From positions 1 through 33,469 of the forward strand of contig DSAS01000074.1 of assembly GCA_011046365.1 (NCBI GenBank): a stretch of 33,469 bases of DNA. Reading direction: 5' to 3'. Source of the stretch: Fidelibacterota bacterium (lineage in GTDB: Bacteria > Fidelibacterota > UBA2242). Below, one piece after another: positions 17,771-18,829 of this stretch. The position numbers were made by a program, and so were the translations under genes. The notes under the pieces were generated by a model. That model did no database searches and was not told the DNA's origin. It was given only the letters and a program-made list of their open reading frames with translations. Every line of letters begins with the position of its first letter. Position 1 is the first letter of the stretch.

Positions 17771-18829
17771 ATGAAACACACTATTTTACTATTTCTCCTC
17801 ATCTTTCTGAGCACCTGTTCACAGAAAAAAGTCGAAGAGGAGCCGGGACAAATCAATTTTAAAGTCACCGAATTTGAAGAAGCCCGGATTGAAGCCCGGG
17901 ACAGTGGTCGCTTGCTGCTGGCTTATTTCTACACCGACTGGTGAAGCTCCTGCAAACGCTTGGACCAGTTGGTCTTCACGCAAAAAGATGTCGCCGACTT
18001 TATCAACACCAATTATGTTGCCCTGAAAATGGATGGCGATACCGAGCTGGGTAACGCCCTGCGCAAACAGTTTAAAGTACCCGGCTATCCGACGATGATT
18101 CTGTTTGCCGCCGACGGGCAAGAGATTGACCGTATTGTCGGATTCAGCGGAAAAAAAGACGAATATTTTCAAATACTTAAAGACTATACCAACGGCATTA
18201 ACACCCTCCACGACCTGCTGTCAAAAAACGGTAGCGATGCCAACAGTGCTCAACTGAATTTTGATATCGCCACGAAATATAGCGATCGCGGCAACGATGA
18301 GTTGGCTTTGCAGTATTTCGAAAATGTACTCGCCCTCGAACCGGATAAAAATTCCAAAATCTATCTCGAATCAGAATACAATGTCGCTGAATCAAAAACC
18401 TTCAGCCGGGATGATCCGCTCTATTTGCAGCAGTATGCTAAAAACTGCCGCAATGAATATCTGCAATACTATGCTTACAGCAGCCTGGTACGTTTTTTCC
18501 GGCTGAAAAAAGACCAGCCCAATGTCATCGCCACCTACGAGGAGGCATTGAGCAAACTGCCTGAAAATGCCTCCATGATGAACAGCTACGCCTGGTACAT
18601 TTTCCAGAACCGGGTCAGCAACTACTATGAACGGGGCATTGCGGTAGCCCGGAAGGCTGTGGCGCTGGAGCCGGAAGCCGACTCCATCTGGGACACCCTG
18701 GGGCAACTGCTGTTTGCCGCCGGATACACGAAAGAAGCCATTATCGCCATGCAGAAAGCAGTGGAGCTGGCACCCGATGAAACATCCTATCAGGAGAATC
18801 TGGAACGTTACAAAGCTAGTCAGTCGTAG
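17771..18829 (+). CDS. Candidate selenoprotein: thioredoxin-like UxxC + TPR lipoprotein; in-frame TGA at 17942-17944
   Basis: ATG 17771 with GAGG upstream gives MKHTILLFLLIFLSTCSQKKVEEEPGQINFKVTEFEEARIEARDSGRLLLAYFYTDW-[TGA]-SSCKRLDQLVFTQKDVADFINTNYVALKMDGDTELGNALRKQFKVPGYPTMILFAADGQ... then TPRs. No frame change across the TGA (171 nt = 57 codons before it). The ORF track starts at TTG 17960 only because the TGA is read as stop. Confidence 0.75.
17941..17979 (+). promoter_or_regulatory. Candidate bacterial SECIS-like RNA hairpin at the TGA
   Basis: Lower pairing GTGAAG (17941-17946) with CTTCAC (17974-17979), embedding the TGA in the 5' arm. Upper hairpin GACC (17963-17966)-AGTT-GGTC (17971-17974) with G at loop position 2, about 24 nt after the TGA. 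The two helices share C17974, so full pairing of both is not simultaneous. No folding was computed. Confidence 0.5.

Follow-up and report, generated by a model that had tools for sequence, protein, structure and literature searches.

A probable selenocysteine codon and its candidate SECIS hairpin in a thioredoxin-like, TPR-containing protein family of Fidelibacterota

In the window (the whole 33,469-nucleotide stretch of DNA analyzed here), a long forward-strand reading frame is interrupted by a TGA codon, at which an earlier sequence-only reading had perceived a SECIS-like RNA structure. The locus thus raises the question of whether this codon terminates a gene or is decoded as selenocysteine (Sec), and, if the latter, which part of the structure around it directs the decoding. 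We consider it very probable that the UGA at 17942-17944 encodes Sec under the direction of a bacterial SECIS element, the hairpin at 17962-17975. This reading draws on what the sequences of this and related genomes hold, namely the frame, Cys codons aligned to the TGA, genes for Sec decoding, a covarying stem and the tendency of that stem to accompany TGA.

The interrupted gene and its predicted product

The coding features on which the argument turns are the following:

17771..18829, forward strand: predicted selenoprotein gene of 352 codons plus a TAG stop, a continuous frame with one internal TGA
17942..17944, forward strand: TGA codon 58, read as Sec, first residue of the U-S-S-C active-site motif, aligned with TGA or Cys in homologs
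17951..17953, forward strand: TGC codon 61, the resolving Cys of the UxxC motif, with alignment column C61 invariant

Past the TGA, the reading frame continues for 294 further codons, and in the program-made list of open reading frames the gene appears only as a TTG-started piece of 289 aa. A profile search recovers full-length relatives throughout the phylum Fidelibacterota/Neomarinimicrobiota, most of them marked as holding one TGA. Among 76 distinct sequences from the phylum, the codon aligned to U58 is TGA in 62 and a Cys codon (TGC/TGT) in 14, with at least 8 Sec/Cys changes on the best tree. The TGA homologs come from many families and genera, amounting to about 60 related species, and their frame is intact on both sides of the codon. 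Hence, the pattern by which selenoproteins are recognized—an in-frame TGA opposite Cys in homologs, with the TGA kept in several species—is found here. One might alternatively take the TGA for a genuine stop codon, or for a Cys codon altered by pseudogene mutation or sequencing error, followed by a hairpin that arose by chance: TGA is a single base away from both TGC and TGT, and a stem fitting the geometric SECIS rules follows 32% of the window's TGA triplets, of which the two strands together hold 1360. However, the recurrence of TGA at the same codon in 62 distinct sequences with undamaged frames, together with the covariation of the downstream stem, renders this exceedingly improbable.

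The N terminus presents a signal/lipobox-like sequence (LSTC in the window's protein; LFAC, LCAC or LFSC in relatives), which is followed by a thioredoxin-like domain at approximately residues 34-135 and by C-terminal TPR repeats. The Pfam matches, all above cut-off, are Thioredoxin_7 (48.7 bits), Thioredoxin_2 (PF13098; 44.9 bits against a cut-off of 27) and TPR_2 (42.4 bits), and Sec stands first in the motif (W-U-S-S-C), as in UxxC proteins of PF13098. An AlphaFold2 model of the product (mean pLDDT 88.9, pTM 0.81) has strands and helices in thioredoxin-like order and TPR-like C-terminal helices, and it places residue 58 immediately ahead of helix 59-68; the active site of thioredoxins sits just before such a helix. 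Pro107, invariant in the alignment of homologs, would occupy the cis-proline position of thioredoxins. As far as can be judged from its sequence, the product is probably an exported, lipid-anchored thioredoxin-like oxidoreductase, in whose redox chemistry Sec would be the attacking residue and whose TPR repeats probably serve in partner binding. With regard to its surroundings, a divergent gene upstream (16343-17599, reverse strand) reads by eye as a U32-type peptidase, and a downstream cluster (19016-24637, reverse strand) resembles, also by eye, a gliding-type ABC transporter, neither having an obvious functional link to the selenoprotein.

The hairpin downstream of the UGA

Three RNA features have to be distinguished:

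17962..17975, forward strand: candidate SECIS core hairpin, GGACC (17962-17966), loop AGUU (17967-17970) and GGUCU (17971-17975), paired in 8 of 8 sequences with covariation
17968..17969, forward strand: apical-loop G-U, invariant in 8 sequences, where contact with SelB would be expected
17941..17979, forward strand: outer helix GTGAAG (17941-17946) with CTTCAC (17974-17979), present and unsupported as part of the element

The letters and coordinates given in the sequence-only reading for both strands of the outer helix and for the inner hairpin (GACC-AGTT-GGTC, 17963-17974) are all correct, and the G that it placed second in the loop about 24 nt after the TGA is indeed there (G17968, 24 nt past 17942-17944). 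It had also held that the two helices contend for a single base; the clash is real, but the contested bases are two (C17974 and U17975), because the hairpin has a fifth pair, G17962-U17975, which had been overlooked.

The published model of bacterial SECIS elements (PMC13188914, Fig. 2A) specifies a loop of 3-9 nt, an upper stem of 4-16 bp, a UGA-to-loop distance of 16-37 nt and an MFE of -7.5 kcal/mol or lower, with a G at loop position 1 or 2 that is usually followed by G or U. The window's hairpin, which lies inside the coding sequence at +18 to +31 after the in-frame TGA, falls within all these numerical limits (loop of 4 nt, stem of 5 bp, UGA-to-loop distance of 22 nt, MFE of -8.9 kcal/mol for 17945-17984). 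It shares with the model the 4-nt loop with G second and then U, the 5-bp upper stem and the coding-region location, whereas its sequence is its own: Rfam has no family for the element at gathering score and none that is convincing below it.

A single-sequence fold of the element proves nothing in itself, and it is conservation and covariation in relatives that lift the observation above chance. In folding energy, the 39-nt element at 17941-17979 does not surpass shuffled versions (z = -0.22), and an inverted 6-mer repeat spanning no more than 39 nt is encountered at 0.8% of window positions. The design seen in the window, here called type A, was compared across 8 sequences, all from the window's order, in which protein identity falls to 29-35% and even the Trp before Sec is replaced. 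In these, 40 of 40 cells are paired, with 6 of 500 shuffles doing equally well, and RNAalifold picks the hairpin without being given it. The block ACCAGUUGGU is invariant in all eight. Two of the five pairs covary and the remaining three never vary: pair 17963-17974 passes from G-C to A-U, an Asp-to-Asn change at codon +7 being matched by a silent Val change (GTC-to-GTT) at +10 such that pairing is kept, and pair 17962-17975 alternates among A-U, G-U and G-C. The test by covariation among TGA homologs that had been proposed with the sequence-only reading has therefore been run and does not refute the inner hairpin, whose identification as a SECIS element is borne out by its agreement with the published model, its covariation in TGA relatives and the decoding machinery that the genome encodes.

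It might still be argued that the block is held constant as a binding site or by a coding constraint unrelated to decoding (e.g., on the protein residues RLDQLVF), and the amino acids are conserved too; yet no codon difference occurs at +8 or +9 in any of the 28 sequence pairs, though the Leu at +9 is six-fold degenerate, and the matched changes at +7 and +10 preserve the base pair, which makes such a constraint a very improbable account. Synonymous-codon conservation at the hairpin is unusually high both in type A and in the second design described below (type B). When the type A element was sought at its exact spacing in 245 genomes, it was found only in the window's gene family and in one other match, in G024, which is not at the family's locus and was dismissed as chance.

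The outer helix, which had been proposed to close the element, fares differently. In E. coli fdhF, the UGA is located in the lower stem of the SECIS, and by analogy the window's element could comprise two helices, with the UGA paired inside GTGAAG/CTTCAC. Across the 8 sequences, 89.6% of the cells of this helix do pair, as do 84.4% of those of the four outer pairs (GUGA/UCAC) that are compatible with the hairpin, but 279 and 309 of 500 shuffles, respectively, equal these values. The outermost pair is broken in three relatives, two pairs out of the six need bases that covarying pairs of the core hairpin also use, and the 3' strand constitutes Phe-Thr codons, all of which speak against the two-helix element and leave it unlikely. 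The bulged U or long lower helix of fdhF could not be shown for the window's element. In the window itself, the outer helix may contribute somewhat to stability, although the preferred model, with the core hairpin as the SECIS element, does not need it. When a wider stretch is folded, the minimum-energy structure holds yet another stem, of 10 bp (17933-17942 with 17964-17973), which was rejected as a coding coincidence: it is not conserved, with breaks in G017 and G019 and partial ones in other sequences.

Decoding machinery and known relatives

The window's genome (2.68 Mb in 187 contigs, 89% complete) encodes selA, selB, selC and selD: a tRNA-Sec with anticodon UCA (56.2 bits, above cut-off), selB (369 bits) directly after selA, and selD (388 bits), with selA being named from the open reading frame directly preceding selB, the sequence of which was read and not scored. 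Across the phylum, a full SelB is found in 51 of 62 genomes with the TGA gene versus 115 of the remaining 183 (Fisher p = 0.005, kinship ignored), in a table compiled by hand from assemblies many of which are incomplete. The several TGA-bearing genomes without a full selB are mostly incomplete assemblies. One genome, G216 (homolog L098, TGA), has no full SelB match though its listed completeness is 100% (contamination 8%); its selB is possibly split or missed. As a separate observation, SelD lies in one frame of 738 aa behind an N-terminal NifS/IscS-like cysteine desulfurase (L138:316-2532; G000:C2 ~29020-29946), an arrangement suggestive of a fused enzyme for selenium supply, the NifS/IscS name having been read from the sequence and not scored.

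These data also bear on the idea that UGA is read as Trp or some other residue through codon reassignment or a suppressor, with no part for a SECIS element. The frame would stay open whichever residue the TGA specified; however, homologs carry Cys and not Trp at the codon, the tRNA-Sec has the UCA anticodon while the Trp tRNA found has CCA, no other TGA read-through frame in the window is convincing, and 12 of the 14 Cys genes no longer have the stem, so that reassignment is scarcely credible. Formate dehydrogenase, looked for in the window's genome as a second Sec gene, gave no match.

If the UGA is indeed a Sec codon, decoding could proceed in a manner analogous to the E. coli system. When the UGA occupies the A site of the ribosome, the hairpin, 18-31 nt further downstream, would still lie outside the mRNA channel, and SelB carrying Sec-tRNA(Sec) would bind its loop, with contacts expected at G17968-U17969, and would deliver Sec in competition with release factor 2. 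A ribosome with UGA in the A site frees the mRNA from about 10-12 nt downstream, and the best fold of the ribosome-free stretch includes the core hairpin (-7.5 kcal/mol in all). The competing 10-bp stem would be excluded during decoding because it uses bases 5' of the UGA, reaching as far as its U, and the decoding ribosome would unwind it.

Sec decoding as a mechanism and UxxC selenoproteins of PF13098 are already known. The window's family shares its type of thioredoxin-like domain, with Sec first in UxxC, with the PF13098 thiol:disulfide interchange selenoproteins (PMC13188914, PMC9312934) and with the Trx-like 2 proteins of the GOS data (cd02953; PMC2398784), and differs from both by its exported N terminus and C-terminal TPR domain. 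Scored against NCBIfam, the window's protein stays below the cut-off of every model. Weak similarity is seen to two thioredoxin-like families with different partner domains: the Trx7/PDZ (seleno)protein NF041199 (16.6 bits against a cut-off of 300) and the selenoprotein family TsoB, NF045694 (46.2 bits against 805). The Thioredoxin_7/PDZ entry in the selenoprotein review listing has CxxU, unlike the UxxC of the window's family. Among solved structures, a close sequence relative is the C-terminal (gamma) domain of DsbD (e.g., 4ip6, 2fwe; E ~5e-19), which has Cys in place of Sec and no TPR domain. The TPR or Trx-TPR architecture is absent from two selenoprotein reviews (PMC13188914, PMC9312934), and no paper on the Trx-TPR family or on Marinimicrobia/Fidelibacterota selenoproteins was found among the open-access papers searched. 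The Trx-TPR selenoprotein family is apparently unnamed; it extends across the phylum, and routine gene prediction breaks its genes at the UGA.

Alternative hairpins within the family

The more interesting part of the finding is that there are two hairpin designs within a single gene family. In most of the other lineages, the TGA is followed by the type B hairpin, with the consensus UCGGC-UGGAN-GCCGA and a loop starting 17 nt after the UGA, six nt nearer to it than the type A loop AGUU, which starts 23 nt after. Compensatory changes among UGA homologs are seen in 2 of 5 pairs of type A and in 5 of 5 pairs of type B; for the latter, 20 cells show double changes versus 3.2 in shuffles, with 0 of 500 reaching 20. 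The two types are separated by a long branch (SH-aLRT 100) on a tree with a midpoint root that serves for drawing only, and a Cys homolog from KSB1 groups within the type A clade (support 90).

Taking both designs together, the stem is intact in 59 of 62 TGA genes versus 2 of 14 Cys genes (Fisher 1.2e-9, kinship ignored). Redrawing the synonymous codons under a fixed protein sequence yields, over 1000 runs, a mean of 8.3 and a maximum of 18 intact stems among the 62, as against the 59 observed. On the tree, typically 5 independent pairs favor the association of Sec with the hairpin, with 0 against and 2 unchanged (sign test p 0.0625).

We give an even chance to a scenario in which one Trx-TPR selenoprotein family has two non-homologous SECIS elements, the window's order using type A and the remaining lineages of the phylum type B, whether through turnover of the SECIS under a standing UGA or through Sec having been gained twice at the same codon. 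Should it hold, related SelBs must accept loops that differ in both sequence and spacing. The family offers a natural covariation record of the bacterial SECIS, with dozens of homologs, two designs, repeated Sec/Cys swaps and a stem mostly gone in the Cys genes; with the two designs and repeated swaps, SECIS turnover and loop recognition by SelB therefore become directly testable.

A few members depart from the general pattern. The Cys-type homologs L091 and L099 (TGC/TGT) keep an intact type B hairpin and have probably switched from Sec to Cys in recent times, with the SECIS left as a relic, because their nearest tree neighbors carry TGA. Three TGA homologs, L105, L111 and L127, have a mismatch in one of the four core stem pairs and may possess a slightly different hairpin.
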